DNA of 34,517 nt, taken from Sneathiellales bacterium. Lineage in GTDB: Bacteria > Pseudomonadota > Alphaproteobacteria > Minwuiales > Minwuiaceae. Shown here one piece after another: positions 15,624 through 31,567 of the stretch (its first letter is position 1; each line of letters begins with the position of its first letter). The stretch lies in contig JALXAG010000262.1 in NCBI GenBank assembly GCA_026992315.1, positions 1 through 34,517 of the forward strand, in the 5' to 3' direction. The translations under genes and the position numbers were made by a program. The notes below the pieces were generated by a model. That model worked only from the letters and a program-made list of their open reading frames with translations, was not told the DNA's origin and searched no databases.

Positions 15624-16508
15624 TCATAGCCAGCCGCGTTGGCGGATCGCAGCCCGATAGGCGCGGCTAACGGGAATTCTGGCGCCGTTATCCAAGAATA
15701 AAATAATCCTGGATCCTTCCTTCCGGGCCGCCGTGACGTGGGATGCCGCCACCCAGTGCGAACGGTGTACCTGTAGCCCGTCCAAGGTTTCAAGCTCTGC
15801 CAGGGCGTCGCGAAAGCGCATCAGAATCATTTCCCGGCCGGCGGTGGTCACGGCACATACATAATGATCCTCGACGGAGACATGCACCAGATCGTCGCCG
15901 ATCCGGGCCGGCAGACGGCGCAGAAAGGGACAGGGCTGCGATGCTGGCGAGGCCGCCTCCTGCTTCATTTCCGGCATCGGAACGTTTGCGGAAGGTGGCG
16001 AAGCCGTTGCCCCGTCATGCGTCGCATCCTCCCTGCGGTGTATCTGCAGTCGGCCGCGTTCCGCCGTCAGGGTCAGGAAATAGCTCAGCACCAGAGCGAC
16101 GGCGAGCACATCGGGATAGTAATAGGCAAGGCCCAAGGGCTCTCTGTCCGTCAGTTTTTTTTCCAGTAAATCGATGAGGAACGCCCCCGGAATGGCGGCG
16201 ATAGCGGCCCCGGCACCGATCGCCAGGAGTTGCAGCCACAATTTTTCTCGCACGATGGCCAGCAGGATCAGAATGCTGCCATAGCACAGGATCCAGCCGC
16301 CCAGAATGGCGACGGCCCAATAAATCAGCCGGGAGGCCGTATCCATATGTTCCAGGGTGCCGAAAGGGCCCATATAGGCGAACAGCAGGATCAGCGGCAC
16401 GATAAAGGCCAGATGCTTTGCCAGAATTTTCACTGGCTGTCTGTTTTCGTCCTTTTGCCGCTGTTGGGTGTGCCGTTCGCGCTTCGTGAAATGCATGAAC
16501 CCGTTCAT
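15624..16508 (-). CDS. Membrane-anchored LytTR-domain transcriptional regulator
   Basis: This 294-residue protein combines a membrane part with a DNA-binding domain. Four hydrophobic segments lie at about 32-48, 61-87, 91-115 and 131-148. A linker rich in Ala, Pro and Ser (about 160-195) leads to a C-terminal LytTR domain (about 197-294) with DLVHVSVEDHYVCAVT and LQVHRSHWVAASHV. There is no receiver or kinase domain, so it looks like a one-component regulator that senses something in the membrane. The start ATG at 16508 has GGGGAG nine bases upstream. It is divergent from the DUF2141 and carotenoid oxygenase genes and is convergent with the LysR gene. The target and signal are inferred from position only. 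Confidence 0.88.
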   Translation of the reverse strand: MNGFMHFTKRERHTQQRQKDENRQPVKILAKHLAFIVPLILLFAYMGPFGTLEHMDTASRLIYWAVAILGGWILCYGSILILLAIVREKLWLQLLAIGAGAAIAAIPGAFLIDLLEKKLTDREPLGLAYYYPDVLAVALVLSYFLTLTAERGRLQIHRREDATHDGATASPPSANVPMPEMKQEAASPASQPCPFLRRLPARIGDDLVHVSVEDHYVCAVTTAGREMILMRFRDALAELETLDGLQVHRSHWVAASHVTAARKEGSRIILFLDNGARIPVSRAYRAAIRQRGWL

Positions 16509-16627
16509 TAACGAATTCTCCCCGTTCCCTCGCGTAATGCGGCTGTCATTTTGCCGGCACCCCCGATTTATTTTCCCCTCAGGTCGTAAAGGCCCGCGTG
16601 AATTAAACCCCGGTGTAATCATACAGG

Positions 16628-17074
16628 ATGCAGAAAATGCACGAAAATATTATTCGGATGATCGGTTTCGCCTCTGTCCTGCCGTTTTCCGCCATGGCCT
16701 CGGCCGCCGATCTGCAGGTCGCGGTCGATGGTGTGCGCAGCGATCAGGGTGAGGTGCGTATCGCCATTATCGGCGAGAACGGCAAGAAGGATTTTCCCAA
16801 TGCCGCCGAAGCCGCCGCGCGGGCCATTGTTCCCGCGCATAAGGGGCGGGTTGCCGCCGGCAGCTACGATCTGCCTCCCGGTAAATACGCCATTGCCGTT
16901 TTTCACGATGAAAACGGCAATGGCAAGCTGGACAGCAATCTGTTCGGCATCCCGACCGAAGGCTATGGTTTTTCCGGCAAGACCAGAGGGTTCATGGGCC
17001 CTCCGAGTTTTGACGGCGCCAGCATCGAAATCGGCGACGACGGAGCCAGGGTTCTGATTCCTCTTACATATTGA
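16628..17074 (+). CDS. Exported DUF2141 protein
   Basis: This small protein of 148 residues has a signal peptide (hydrophobic stretch ending AMASA-A) and a DUF2141 domain. The family feature seen is KYAIAVFHDENGNGKLDSNLFGIPTEGYGFS, with an acidic DENGNGKLD loop that resembles a calcium-binding site. Function of DUF2141 is unknown. A second ATG nine bases downstream (16637) has AGGA about eight bases before it and may be the true start. The gene lies 28 bases upstream of the carotenoid oxygenase and probably shares its transcript. It is divergent from the LytTR gene. Both products of this operon are predicted to be outside the cytoplasm. Confidence 0.85.
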   Translation: MQKMHENIIRMIGFASVLPFSAMASAADLQVAVDGVRSDQGEVRIAIIGENGKKDFPNAAEAAARAIVPAHKGRVAAGSYDLPPGKYAIAVFHDENGNGKLDSNLFGIPTEGYGFSGKTRGFMGPPSFDGASIEIGDDGARVLIPLTY

Positions 17075-17102
17075 TCGCCTTGTATTGCGAAGGGAAAAGA
17101 TC

Positions 17103-18599
17103 ATGAACAGGCGTGGTTTCCTGACGGCAGCGGCAATGCTGCCACTGATCGGGGCTTTCGGGCCGGGGCTGGTGTTCGGTGCGGAGGCGGGGCCGATATT
17201 CCGCGCCTTTCGGGAGGGGCGGGCAAAGCATCCTTGGCTGACGGCCTTCGACACTGCTGCCGCGGCCTATGATTGCGAAAATTGCGAAATGGAAGGCCGC
17301 CTGCCCGCCGGATTGCGCGGTATTCTTTACCGCAATGGTCCGGCCATGCATGAGAAGGGCGGGCGGCGTTATCGCCATTGGTTCGATGGCGATGGCATGG
17401 TGCAGGCCTTCCGTCTTGGTGAACAGGGTGTTTCCCATCGCGGTCGCTTTGTCGAAACGGCAAAATTCGTGGCGGAGAAAAAGGCGGGCCGCATGCTTTA
17501 TCCCGGGTTTGCCACGCCCTTGCAGGACGCATTGCCGGTTGCCGGACCCGATAGCGTCAATGTCGCCAATATCAATGTAATTTCTCATGCCGGGCGGCTC
17601 TATGCCCTGTGGGAAGCCGGTAGTGCCTATGAAATTGCCCCGGATGATCTGAAAACCCTGGGACCGAAGATCTGGACACCGGAAATGCGCGGGATGCCGT
17701 TCTCGGCCCATCCCCATGCGGATAGGGATGGCACGCTATGGAATTTCGGCTATGAAATCACCCGGGCCGACATGCTGGTTCTCTATCGCATCGATGCCGG
17801 CGGAACAGTGCGCGGACATGCCGTCATTCCTGTGCCGGGAATGGCGCCCATTCATGATTTCGTGGTGACCGAACGTCATCTGGTCTTTCTGATTCCACCG
17901 CTTTCCCATGATCATAACCGCGATCCGCGGCGCAGTTTCCTCGATAGCCTGTCCTGGGATCCGGATGCGCCGAGCCGGATTCTTGTTGTCGACAAGGACG
18001 ATCTGAGCCGCCGCCGCTGGCTGGAAATGCCGGCTAACTGGGTGTTTCACTTCGCCGATGGCTGGGACGAAAGGGACGGCACCATCCGTTTGCATGCCTG
18101 TACGTATGAGGATGCCGAAATCCTGTTCACGCCCTTCCGGGCCGTTATGCGCGGGGAGGTGCCGGCGATCCCCGCGGCGAGGATGCGGAGAATCGCCCTT
18201 CATCCCGATAATCGGGTCACGGTCGAGGATAGCGGCATTGCCGGGGAATTTCCGCGCACCAGCACCCCGGCGGGCAGCGGTGTTGCGCCCTATATGGTTC
18301 TGGCCGGCCCCGGCTCGTCAGCGCATCCGTTGCCCAATCGCATTGTGCTGTGGGACGGGGTGAAAGAGCAGGCGCGCGGTTATCGTTACGGCGATACGGA
18401 AATCGCCGAGGAACATGTCATCGTTCCCGACCGTAATGGCCGGGCGCGCTGGGTTCTGGGCACCAGCCACGATTTCGCGGCCCGGCGCACGCGGCTGAAT
18501 GTGTTCGAGATCGCCGGTTTCGCAGATGGGCCCGTTTGCCGGGCGACCCTGCCTTACGCCCTGCCCCTGGGCCTGCACGGGAATTTCGTTGCCGTTTGA
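17103..18599 (+). CDS. Tat-exported carotenoid cleavage oxygenase
   Basis: Carotenoid oxygenases use Fe(II) held by four histidines to split a carotenoid or stilbene double bond. All four are visible at about H203 (SAHPH), H251 (PIHDFV), H316 (VFHFADG) and H492 (GLHGNF). The 498-residue length and RPE65-like start (GRLPAGLRGILYRNGPAMHE) also fit. The N-terminus MNRRGFLTAAAMLPLIG has a Tat twin-arginine motif followed by a hydrophobic stretch, so export of the folded enzyme is predicted; most bacterial members are cytoplasmic. The start at 17103 has AAGGGA at good distance. It is probably co-transcribed with the DUF2141 gene. No carotenoid synthesis genes are present in the window, so the substrate is unknown. 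Confidence 0.92.
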   Translation: MNRRGFLTAAAMLPLIGAFGPGLVFGAEAGPIFRAFREGRAKHPWLTAFDTAAAAYDCENCEMEGRLPAGLRGILYRNGPAMHEKGGRRYRHWFDGDGMVQAFRLGEQGVSHRGRFVETAKFVAEKKAGRMLYPGFATPLQDALPVAGPDSVNVANINVISHAGRLYALWEAGSAYEIAPDDLKTLGPKIWTPEMRGMPFSAHPHADRDGTLWNFGYEITRADMLVLYRIDAGGTVRGHAVIPVPGMAPIHDFVVTERHLVFLIPPLSHDHNRDPRRSFLDSLSWDPDAPSRILVVDKDDLSRRRWLEMPANWVFHFADGWDERDGTIRLHACTYEDAEILFTPFRAVMRGEVPAIPAARMRRIALHPDNRVTVEDSGIAGEFPRTSTPAGSGVAPYMVLAGPGSSAHPLPNRIVLWDGVKEQARGYRYGDTEIAEEHVIVPDRNGRARWVLGTSHDFAARRTRLNVFEIAGFADGPVCRATLPYALPLGLHGNFVAV

Positions 18600-19339: not shown

Positions 19340-19813
19340 TCAGTAGCGGGCATAGATCCGTGCCGAACCATCCTCCTTGAACAGTATGACGTTGTAGGAT
19401 TCATTCCCGCCGCCTTCCATGCCGGGAGAGCCGGCAGGCATGCCAGGAACCGACAGGCCCGCTGCCGCCGGTTTTTCTGCCAGCAGGCGTTCGATATCGC
19501 GTGCGGGAACATGGCCTTCAATCACATAGTTGCCGACCATGGCCGTGTGGCAGGCCTGCAGCGGCGCCGGGACGCCGGCGATCTTCTTGATCGGGTCCAG
19601 GTTCTCCGTCTCCTTGACGGTGACGTCATGGCCATTGGCTTTCAGGTGGTCGATCCATTTGGCACAGCAGCCACACCACGGAGATTTATAGACGATGAAA
19701 TCGGCAGCCTTTGCAGCGCCGAGCGAGGTTGCCGCCATCATCGCCACGGCGGCGGCCGCCGCCTGCAATGCCCTGAGCGAAGCGGGTTTGCGCTGATGTC
19801 TGTCTCGTGCCAT
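19340..19813 (-). CDS. Exported DUF411 metal-binding protein
   Basis: This 157-residue protein has a signal peptide (hydrophobic Ala-rich stretch to about residue 37) and a DUF411 domain with thioredoxin-like topology. Potential metal ligands are CGCC at 47-50 (SPWCGCCAKW), Cys88-His89 (LQACHTAM) and His101 (VIEGHVPA). DUF411 proteins are often found beside copper genes and are thought to bind metals in the periplasm. It keeps a C-terminal extension rich in Gly, Met and Pro beyond the core. The start ATG at 19813 has GAGG five bases upstream. It is upstream of the zinc-ribbon gene in the same direction. A copA-cueR pair lies about 9 kb away in the window, but no direct link is shown. Confidence 0.88.
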   Translation of the reverse strand: MARDRHQRKPASLRALQAAAAAVAMMAATSLGAAKAADFIVYKSPWCGCCAKWIDHLKANGHDVTVKETENLDPIKKIAGVPAPLQACHTAMVGNYVIEGHVPARDIERLLAEKPAAAGLSVPGMPAGSPGMEGGGNESYNVILFKEDGSARIYARY

Positions 19814-19961
19814 GTCAGCCTCTTTTCTGCGAAATGTCATGTTGCGGAAGATTCTCTAACATCTCTAGGAACTATAGGGTCAAGGGCGGATTGGATCAGG
19901 AAGATATTTTTCCCGCTGTGGCGATCCCGCCTGCCGGCGGAAAGGCAGAAGCGGAAAATGA

Positions 19962-29128: not shown

Positions 29129-31567
29129 ATGGCCGCCGTTGAAATGAGTGAGCACCGCGAGCAGCGGAAAATCCGCTTCGATGTCGAAGGGATGACCTGT
29201 GCCGGCTGTGCCGCCAAGCTCGAAAAAGCACTGGCGGAAACGCCGGGCGTGATCGAGGCTAATGTGAATATTTCCCTGAACCGGGCCGATATCGTTTACG
29301 ATCCGGAGGAAATCGATCCGGCCGGCCTGGTCGCCAGGGTCGATGATACCGGCTATGCGGTGAAGGCCGAACCGGTGCAGTTCGATGTCAGCGGCATGAC
29401 CTGCGCCGGCTGCGCCGCCAAGGTCGAACGGGCGATCAGGTCGGTTCCCGGCGTTGTCGATGCCACTGTCAACCTGCCTCTGGAACGCGCCGATGTCCGG
29501 TTTGCCGGTGCGGCGGATCCGGAGCTGGTGGTCAGGGCCGTGGCCGATGCCGGTTTTTCCGCTCATCCGCGCGTCAGCGGCAAGAGCAAGGCGGAAAAAC
29601 AGGCCGAGGAAGATGCGAAGGCGGAGGCCGCCATCCGCCGCGAAAGCATCATGCTGGTACTGGCTGCGGTGCTCAGCACGCCGCTGGTGCTGAAGATGGT
29701 CTTCCCCGGGGCGGGCTTCCTGGCCTGGCTCAGCCCCACGGTCGAATGGCTGCTGGCGACCCCGGTGCAGTTCATTGTCGGGGCGCCGTTCTACCGTAAT
29801 GCCTGGAATGCCGTTCGCCACCGCACCGCCAATATGGATGTGCTGGTGGTGTTGGGCACCACGGTAACCTATCTCTACAGCCTGGCATTGCTGGTTCTGT
29901 TGGGCGAAGGGGCGGAAGGACGGCTGTATTTCGAAACCTCGGCCGTGCTGATTACCTTCATTCTGGCCGGACGCATTCTCGAAGCCCGTGCCAAACGGGG
30001 TACCACGGCGGCGATTCGTGAATTGATGGCACTGCGCCCCGAGGAGGCCCGTCTTCTGCGCGACGGCAAGGAGGTGACGGTCGGGATCGAAGATGTGGCT
30101 GTCGGCGATATCGTGCTGATCAAGCCCGGCGAGAAAGTCCCGGTCGATGGCGAGATCGTTTCCGGGGAAAGCGCGCTCGACGAATCCCTGATTACGGGAG
30201 AAAGCGTACCGGTGCGCCGCAAAAGCGGCGATATGGTCGCCTGCGGTGCCATCAACGGCGAAGGGGTGCTGCAGGTCAGGGCCACCGCCGTTGGCGAGGA
30301 CAGCAGCCTTGCCCGTATCGTTCGTCTGGTGGAAAATGCCCAGTCGGGCAAGGCGCCGGTGCAGCGCCTGGTCGATAAGATCAGCGCCATTTTCGTGCCC
30401 GTGATCATCGTTTTGTCGATCCTGACCTTTATCGGCTGGTTCGCTTTCGGCGGCGGGTTCGAGAACGCGCTGATCGCGGCCGTGTCGGTGCTGGTGATTG
30501 CCTGCCCCTGTGCGCTCGGTCTGGCCACGCCGACGGCGCTGGTTGCCGGTACCGGTTCGGCGGCACGCCATGGCATCCTGATCAAGGATATCGAGGCGCT
30601 GGAGCGGGCCCATCGCGTCGATCTGGTGGTGTTCGACAAAACCGGCACCCTGACAGAAGGCAAGCCCGCCGTGCAGCGCGTTTCACCCGTCGAAGGCTGG
30701 GACGGGCAAGCCGTGCTGCGCCTGTGTGCTGCCGCCCAGCAGGGCAGCGAGCATCCGCTGGCCCGCGCCATTCTGGCCGCGGCGGAGGAGGCCGGGATCG
30801 AATTGCCGCCCTATGAGGATTTCAAGGCCGTGCCGGGGCTGGGCGTGCAGGCCCGGGTCGAGGGGCGGCAGATCCTTTGCGGCAATGGCGAGCTGATGGA
30901 AGAACAGGGCATTGATCTGACCCCGGCGGCCGCATTGCTGGCCGAGGTGGAGGAGCGGGCCGAAACCCCGTCGATCGTGGCAGTGGATGGCAAGGTGGCC
31001 GGTGTGATCGCCATCGCCGACACCATCCGCCCGACGGCACGGGAGGCCATCGCCCTGCTGAAGAAGCAAAAGGTCCGTACCGCCCTGCTCTCCGGCGATA
31101 TGCCCGCTGTCGCCGCCCGGGTGGCCGAAGATCTGGGCCTTGACAGCTATCGCGGTCAGGTGCGCCCCGGCGACAAGGCCAATGAGGTGGAGAAATACCG
31201 CCGCGGCGGCCATGTCGTGGCCATGGTCGGCGACGGCGTCAACGATGCTCCGGCACTGGCGGCCGCCGATGTCGGCATCGCCATGGGCTCCGGCACCGAT
31301 GTGGCGATGGAAACGGCATCCATCACCCTGATGCGCCCGGAACCGCGTCTTGTCAGCGCGGCGCTGGATGTGTCCAAGGCGACATGGCGCAAGATCCGTC
31401 AGAATCTGTTCTGGGCGTTTATCTACAACCTGATCGGCATTCCGCTGGCGATGGCCGGGCTGTTGAGCCCCGCCCTGGCCGGTCTGGCCATGGCTTTGAG
31501 CTCGGCCAGCGTCGTCAGCAGTTCGCTGTTGCTGCGCTTCTGGAAGCCGAAATTCGAGGAGGCCTGA
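29129..31567 (+). CDS. copA: Copper-exporting P1B-type ATPase CopA
   Basis: This 812-residue protein pumps Cu(I) out of the cytoplasm. Two N-terminal metal-binding domains have MTCAGC (Cys24/27 and Cys92/95) and are very alike. The core has TGES (356-359), the transport motif CPC (459-461), DKTGT with phosphorylated Asp503, SEHPLA (540-545) and GDGVNDAP. Near the C-terminus, YN in IYNLIGIPLA and MxxxS in MALSSASVV are the P1B-1 copper signature. All functional motifs are intact. The start has GGAGGAG about four bases upstream. It is preceded by the CueR-type operator and followed at two bases by cueR. Confidence 0.97.
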   Translation: MAAVEMSEHREQRKIRFDVEGMTCAGCAAKLEKALAETPGVIEANVNISLNRADIVYDPEEIDPAGLVARVDDTGYAVKAEPVQFDVSGMTCAGCAAKVERAIRSVPGVVDATVNLPLERADVRFAGAADPELVVRAVADAGFSAHPRVSGKSKAEKQAEEDAKAEAAIRRESIMLVLAAVLSTPLVLKMVFPGAGFLAWLSPTVEWLLATPVQFIVGAPFYRNAWNAVRHRTANMDVLVVLGTTVTYLYSLALLVLLGEGAEGRLYFETSAVLITFILAGRILEARAKRGTTAAIRELMALRPEEARLLRDGKEVTVGIEDVAVGDIVLIKPGEKVPVDGEIVSGESALDESLITGESVPVRRKSGDMVACGAINGEGVLQVRATAVGEDSSLARIVRLVENAQSGKAPVQRLVDKISAIFVPVIIVLSILTFIGWFAFGGGFENALIAAVSVLVIACPCALGLATPTALVAGTGSAARHGILIKDIEALERAHRVDLVVFDKTGTLTEGKPAVQRVSPVEGWDGQAVLRLCAAAQQGSEHPLARAILAAAEEAGIELPPYEDFKAVPGLGVQARVEGRQILCGNGELMEEQGIDLTPAAALLAEVEERAETPSIVAVDGKVAGVIAIADTIRPTAREAIALLKKQKVRTALLSGDMPAVAARVAEDLGLDSYRGQVRPGDKANEVEKYRRGGHVVAMVGDGVNDAPALAAADVGIAMGSGTDVAMETASITLMRPEPRLVSAALDVSKATWRKIRQNLFWAFIYNLIGIPLAMAGLLSPALAGLAMALSSASVVSSSLLLRFWKPKFEEA

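Follow-up and report, generated by a model that had tools for sequence, protein, structure and literature searches.

A LytTR regulator gene divergent from DUF2141 and carotenoid oxygenase genes: a conserved proteobacterial unit with a predicted Tat-exported oxygenase

The locus and its gene products

The window analysed here is the whole 34,517-base contig of a Sneathiellales bacterium, whose 3.15-Mb genome is of alphaproteobacterial type. It contains a three-gene unit, flanked by a LysR gene and a tRNA-Leu gene, in which a LytTR regulator gene is divergent from genes for a DUF2141 protein and a carotenoid oxygenase (Table 1). A preliminary description of this DNA had already proposed this layout, and all three genes are present with matches to their Pfam families; the scores are 113 bits against a gathering score of 24.4 for the DUF2141 protein (PF09912) and 335 bits against 27 for the oxygenase (PF03055). 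The most likely start of the LytTR gene is the ATG at 16508, which has a GGGGAG ribosome site upstream, and we therefore take the protein to be 294 residues long; the start at 16622 assumed earlier was rejected in view of the ribosome site and of family comparison. For the oxygenase a TTG start at 17085 was dropped in favour of the ATG at 17103, from which all residue numbers are counted. The genome holds a single LytTR gene and a single oxygenase of the module type.

Table 1. Positions of the genes and of predicted or conserved elements in the window
Feature	Position	Strand	Basis
Membrane LytTR transcription regulator, 294 aa	15624..16508	-	PF04397 E=3.1e-13; hydropathy; family comparison; ribosome site
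Divergent intergenic region, LytTR / DUF2141	16509..16627	.	sequence
Candidate LytTR operator CCCTCGCGTAATGCGGCTGTCA	16527..16548	+	comparative motif nTTYRCGMAW-N7-TTG
DUF2141 protein, 148 aa, Sec-type signal peptide	16628..17074	+	PF09912 E=7.5e-33; alignment; AlphaFold2 pLDDT 87.8
Tat-signal carotenoid oxygenase (RPE65/CCO family), 498 aa	17103..18599	+	PF03055 E=9.1e-100; model; fold matches 6vcf, 2biw
Predicted Tat signal peptide MNRRGFLTAAAMLPLIGAFGPGLVFGAEA	17103..17189	+	RR invariant in 16 homologues; Tat-like 84/96
Fe-ligand His203 codon	17709..17711	+	invariant in alignment
Fe-ligand His251 codon	17853..17855	+	invariant in alignment
Fe-ligand His316 codon	18048..18050	+	invariant in alignment
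Fe-ligand His492 codon	18576..18578	+	invariant in alignment

The LytTR DNA-binding domain forms the C-terminal part of the regulator (residues 205-291) and follows an N-terminal membrane domain of a four-helix family and a linker. The four membrane helices initially described hold in part, as a strict hydropathy scan finds three strong helices and a fourth that is weaker; for many members of the family it gives four. A sequence motif common to 17 homologous intergenic regions (log-likelihood 201 versus 162-165 in shuffles) points to a candidate operator in front of the DUF2141 gene, and with a leave-window-out profile this site ranks 5th of 68,992 window positions. Because some of the motif sites in relatives lie near or overlap the LytTR start, we regard the candidate operator as suggestive only, on grounds that are weak to moderate. 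The 9-bp direct repeats with 18-25 bp spacing of the LytTR type were unconvincing in these intergenic regions, and the profile motif performed better.

The DUF2141 proteins carry Sec-type signal peptides as judged by eye (...SAMASA/ADL in the present one) and share a conserved loop, HDENGNGKLD...IPTEGYGFS. The AlphaFold2 model of the protein is a predicted beta-sandwich, for which a fold search returned generic beta-sandwich matches only (E>0.009) and no confident solved relative.

Conservation of the gene neighbourhood

Whether the three genes stay together in related genomes was asked of an even sample of 289 genomes of the class, which was searched with models of the LytTR, DUF2141 and oxygenase families (37, 93 and 73 places used, respectively). 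They contain 12 LytTR-DUF2141-oxygenase triads in 7 families, where about 0.02-0.03 adjacencies would be expected by chance, and any oxygenase no more than 3 kb from a LytTR gene also has a DUF2141 gene. The co-occurrence suspected at the outset is thus confirmed; the module is conserved and the neighbourhood exceeds chance by far. The arrangement varies to some extent, in that the LytTR gene of one family (f64) lies downstream and convergent rather than divergent, and in two genomes (G083 and G292) the LytTR-DUF2141 pair persists where an oxygenase of the module type was not detected. At two loci with a divergent LytTR-DUF2141 pair (L059:8203-9588 and L064:6605-7990) an HpcH/HpaI-family gene lies near, and the genome likewise yielded no oxygenase of the family.

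Among the nine genomes of the order, DUF2141-oxygenase pairs are found in G001, G003, G004, G005, G006 and G008, with oxygenase identities of 39-46%. A divergent LytTR gene accompanies all of them except that of G001, the locus in G006 being cut by the contig end. In G001 the LytTR gene is replaced by a gene that reads by eye as PadR-like and lies ahead of the pair on its strand, overlapping it by 4 bases (L018:4196-4792). In one genus (g3; L020-L023, e.g. L020:6536-7855) the oxygenase gene is directly followed on its own strand by a gene of about 439 codons, which in L020 encodes a HisKA histidine kinase, possibly an extra sensor.

A scan of named genomes, one per species for 84,980 species, extends the picture beyond the class. 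The 80 best oxygenase loci were kept and, being the top matches to the query, they describe the clade and not oxygenases at large. They come from Alpha-, Beta- and Gammaproteobacteria, with Variovorax, Ralstonia, Undibacterium, Maricaulis, Caulobacter, Pseudoxanthomonas, Pseudoalteromonas and many uncultured organisms as hosts. The DUF2141 gene lies directly upstream of the oxygenase gene in 77 of the 78 loci that could be evaluated, L151 being the one without it and L128 and L140 ending with their contigs; this order is kept over the three classes at about 40% identity. The suggestion that DUF2141 is a partner of the oxygenase therefore holds at the genetic level, where it is near-obligate, and the persistence of the pair across many Proteobacteria argues for an apparently real system. 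The link to a LytTR-domain regulator, proposed earlier as a one-component membrane sensor, is sustained as well and takes two forms. A divergent membrane LytTR gene is present at 11 of the 80 loci, and at 12, mostly gammaproteobacterial, a LytS-type kinase (matching PF06580 in those scanned) and a LytTR response regulator are encoded directly downstream, so that the one-component form is found mainly in the alpha- and the two-component form in many of the gammaproteobacteria. Since most betaproteobacterial copies, like that of G001, have no adjacent LytTR gene, this link is frequent rather than universal. Beyond the three genes the neighbours vary (histidine kinase, aminotransferase, HpcH aldolase, esterase) and no pathway emerges from them; recurrent uptake or catabolic genes were not seen beside the module.

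The oxygenase clade and its export signal

All four iron-binding histidines named in the preliminary description (H203, H251, H316 and H492) and both arginines of its Tat motif (R3 and R4 in MNRRGFL) proved invariant in 16 aligned module oxygenases. The same holds for the second-shell glutamates E171 and E436, and nearly so for E382. An AlphaFold2 model of the protein (pLDDT 86.1, pTM 0.87) has the seven-bladed propeller fold and lies nearest to the carotenoid and apocarotenoid cleavers, namely Nitrosotalea CCD (6vcf) and the Synechocystis apocarotenoid-15,15'-oxygenase ACO (2biw), at TM 0.80-0.82; lignostilbene dioxygenases (LSDs) come slightly below at 0.76-0.80, and the ranking of the two fold types is thus a close one. 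ACO and 6vcf are the best matches in sequence too and resemble the module oxygenase in their four-histidine iron site and second-shell glutamates, but they share only about 25% identity with it and branch separately with strong support. A tree of 93 proteins places the 61 oxygenases of the module on one side of a branch (SH-aLRT 100), and ACO and the LSD-like proteins outside this clade. A separate, Tat-less LSD-like oxygenase is encoded in G002, G003, G007 and G008 of the same order (L024-L027). A scan of viral contigs with the oxygenase as query found no relative.

The predicted N-terminal export signal of the oxygenase, MNRRGFLTAAAMLPLIGAFGPGLVFGAEA, comprises the twin-arginine motif, a hydrophobic region and an AxA-like site, all conserved in homologues, and the alignable part of ACO begins only after it. 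Scored by motif plus a hydrophobicity test, a Tat-like signal is present in 84 of 96 module oxygenases but in none of 34 other alphaproteobacterial oxygenases sampled (Fisher p=2e-21, the relatedness of the sequences being uncorrected). Among the 12 negatives, several stem from frames that are truncated, too long or at a contig edge, and one (L187) has RRQWL, which falls outside the scored pattern. These comparisons support the view that a putative Tat-type signal sets the module clade apart from its sampled Tat-less relatives, and a TatC gene was found in the Sneathiellales genome. To our knowledge, characterised bacterial carotenoid oxygenases all act inside the cell.

Possible function and relation to known systems

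But what would an exported oxygenase, a DUF2141 protein and a membrane regulator accomplish together? The reading we prefer, to which we assign a probability of roughly one half, is that they form a self-contained module in which lipophilic polyenes from outside are cleaved in the periplasm, DUF2141 is the partner of the oxygenase and a membrane protein is the sensor. The oxygenase would fold and load iron in the cytoplasm, be exported by Tat, and oxidatively split C=C bonds of a lipophilic, apocarotenoid-like compound from the surroundings. The beta-sandwich of DUF2141, exported by Sec, would serve as its periplasmic partner and, most simply, hold or deliver the lipophilic substrate or product. 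The helix bundle of the LytTR protein, which has no periplasmic domain, may respond to this compound, to its product or to what they do to the inner membrane, whereupon the protein would activate the divergent DUF2141-oxygenase operon. The gene content, its conservation, the export signals, the iron site and the association with LytTR in two architectures are established by computation; the substrate class, the role of DUF2141, the inducer and the direction of regulation are inferred. A bolder version, in which pan-proteobacterial sensing and periplasmic cleavage of external polyenes unite the Tat-exported clade with DUF2141, its dedicated partner for binding (apo)carotenoids, and with a LytTR protein that detects the ligand in the inner membrane, is one that we hold tentatively and with some doubt.

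The preliminary description had envisaged a periplasmic module cleaving apocarotenoids or stilbenes. The conserved module and the Tat signal speak for its general outline, and the stilbene half of the proposal fares poorly. Lignostilbene dioxygenases bind the 4-hydroxyl of the substrate through Tyr101 and Lys134, with Phe59 stacking on it (PMC8191317). Aligned to an LSD above its NCBIfam cut-off, the module oxygenase has Phe94, Phe136 and Trp170 in place of Phe59, Tyr101 and Lys134, the tryptophan being shared by all 16 module proteins in the alignment, and because the phenol-binding Tyr and Lys are thereby lost, stilbene is disfavoured as substrate. Thus, although LsdA, NOV1, NOV2 and LSD4 have fold, family and iron site in common with the module oxygenase and it weakly matches the LSD and NOV2 models, it scores far under the LSD cut-offs NF053778 and NF053780 (155 versus 800 and 140 versus 650 bits), the module clade includes no LSD-type proteins, and none of the 34 LSD-like and other homologues sampled has a Tat signal. 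Periplasmic cleavage of plant-derived aromatics, stilbenes or phenylpropenoids, in the manner of an LSD consequently appears improbable to us. Tryptophan at the Lys134 position, as in ACO, together with the fold matches would favour a lipophilic, apocarotenoid-like substrate. Could such a substrate be one of the cell's own carotenoids, or the reaction supply retinal to a rhodopsin? Family membership and the position of DUF2141 genes beside crtI or crtG in other bacteria would fit, but a CrtI-type phytoene desaturase over the cut-off, found in 43 of the 289 class genomes, was detected neither in the Sneathiellales genome nor in its 8 relatives of the order, and it occurs in 3 of 13 module carriers (the 12 triads plus G192, where the module is split between contigs) as against 40 of 276 other genomes, with no association (p=0.42). 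As 10 of the 13 carriers, the Sneathiellales genome included, thus have no phytoene desaturase, the substrate is probably external in most of them; turnover of own carotenoids is largely refuted for this genome and highly unlikely overall. A search for rhodopsin gave no match, which is uninformative, as the control did not respond either.

A merely historical or chance neighbourhood with no joint function could account for the free variation of the genes that flank the triad, but with the number and spread of triads seen against the chance expectation, and with the DUF2141-oxygenase order kept over three classes at about 40% identity, we consider it to be hardly tenable. A weightier alternative starts from the regulator. 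HigX of Caulobacter crescentus, also alphaproteobacterial, has the same architecture as the module regulator, a four-helix membrane domain without a periplasmic domain, a linker and a LytTR domain, and its targets are envelope genes, its action depending on the membrane domain (PMC13384398). The one-component membrane LytTR architecture is therefore already known. The likeness is one of architecture; HigX adjoins a hydrolase gene (PMC13384398), whereas the module regulator is divergent from the DUF2141-oxygenase pair. By analogy, the regulator could sense the state of the membrane for envelope maintenance, with DUF2141 as its main target and an oxygenase that detoxifies oxidised or toxic envelope polyenes, own or foreign, rather than serving catabolism. 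The LytTR-DUF2141 pairs without the oxygenase, which indicate that DUF2141 also acts without it, are in line with this, as are the failure of the module to track carotenoid synthesis and the lack of recurring catabolic genes beside it. Seen from the oxygenase, however, the partnership with DUF2141 is nearly absolute, which suggests a joint enzymatic role, and no recurrent envelope-stress genes were seen beside the module. We rate envelope maintenance as rather unlikely but worth keeping in mind.

For the polyene-cleaving module that we prefer, the context of DUF2141 elsewhere is informative. Other DUF2141 genes adjoin crtI in three class genomes (G022, G154 and G289) and an FA_hydroxylase gene at L106, and in Sphingomonadales one lies beside crtG (PMC5989583). 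There too the family neighbours a carotenoid-modifying enzyme, although the enzyme is a different one, the hosts are pigmented and no LytTR gene was reported (PMC5989583). A polyene-binding role would be the simplest joint reading of these contexts. The carotenoid link is not exclusive, since DUF2141 genes are also found beside cobT and other unrelated genes; the cobT (DBI_PRT) neighbourhood recurs in four alphaproteobacterial genomes (L081, L085, L100 and L101) as a second context. On the regulatory side, the LytTR regulatory systems (LRS; PMC6193735) and LytS/LytT likewise couple a LytTR domain to a multi-helix membrane protein, and the gammaproteobacterial module copies with their LytS-type kinase and LytTR response regulator resemble the latter. 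In the present locus, by contrast, sensor and DNA-binding domain are fused in one protein, encoded in a divergon without a membrane partner gene, unlike an LRS with its separate membrane inhibitor and soluble LytTR protein. Hydropathy gives most kinases of the gammaproteobacterial two-component copies a membrane region of three to four helices, which would fit a signal read within the membrane.

We found no paper that joins DUF2141 with "carotenoid oxygenase", nor one that combines carotenoid cleavage, twin-arginine, bacterial and periplasm, in a literature search of papers open without subscription. The three-gene system is apparently undescribed; its parts come from known families, and what is new is their combination and the oxygenase clade with its Tat signal. 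Should the proposed function be true, many Proteobacteria without a carotenoid pathway would process polyenes or apocarotenoids outside the cytoplasm, be it for food, for detoxification or for signalling with algae and plants. DUF2141 would gain a first function and this type of membrane LytTR sensor a defined chemical ligand class. The module makes both the function of DUF2141 and the signal of membrane LytTR regulators directly testable.

Elsewhere in the window, a DUF411 gene (positions 19340-19840) and, about 9 kb from it, a gene for a P-type ATPase with two heavy-metal-associated domains (29129-31567) possibly serve in copper (metal) handling, and the contig end (32071-34506) encodes a histidine kinase that combines PAS domains with a periplasmic domain of the LuxQ type.
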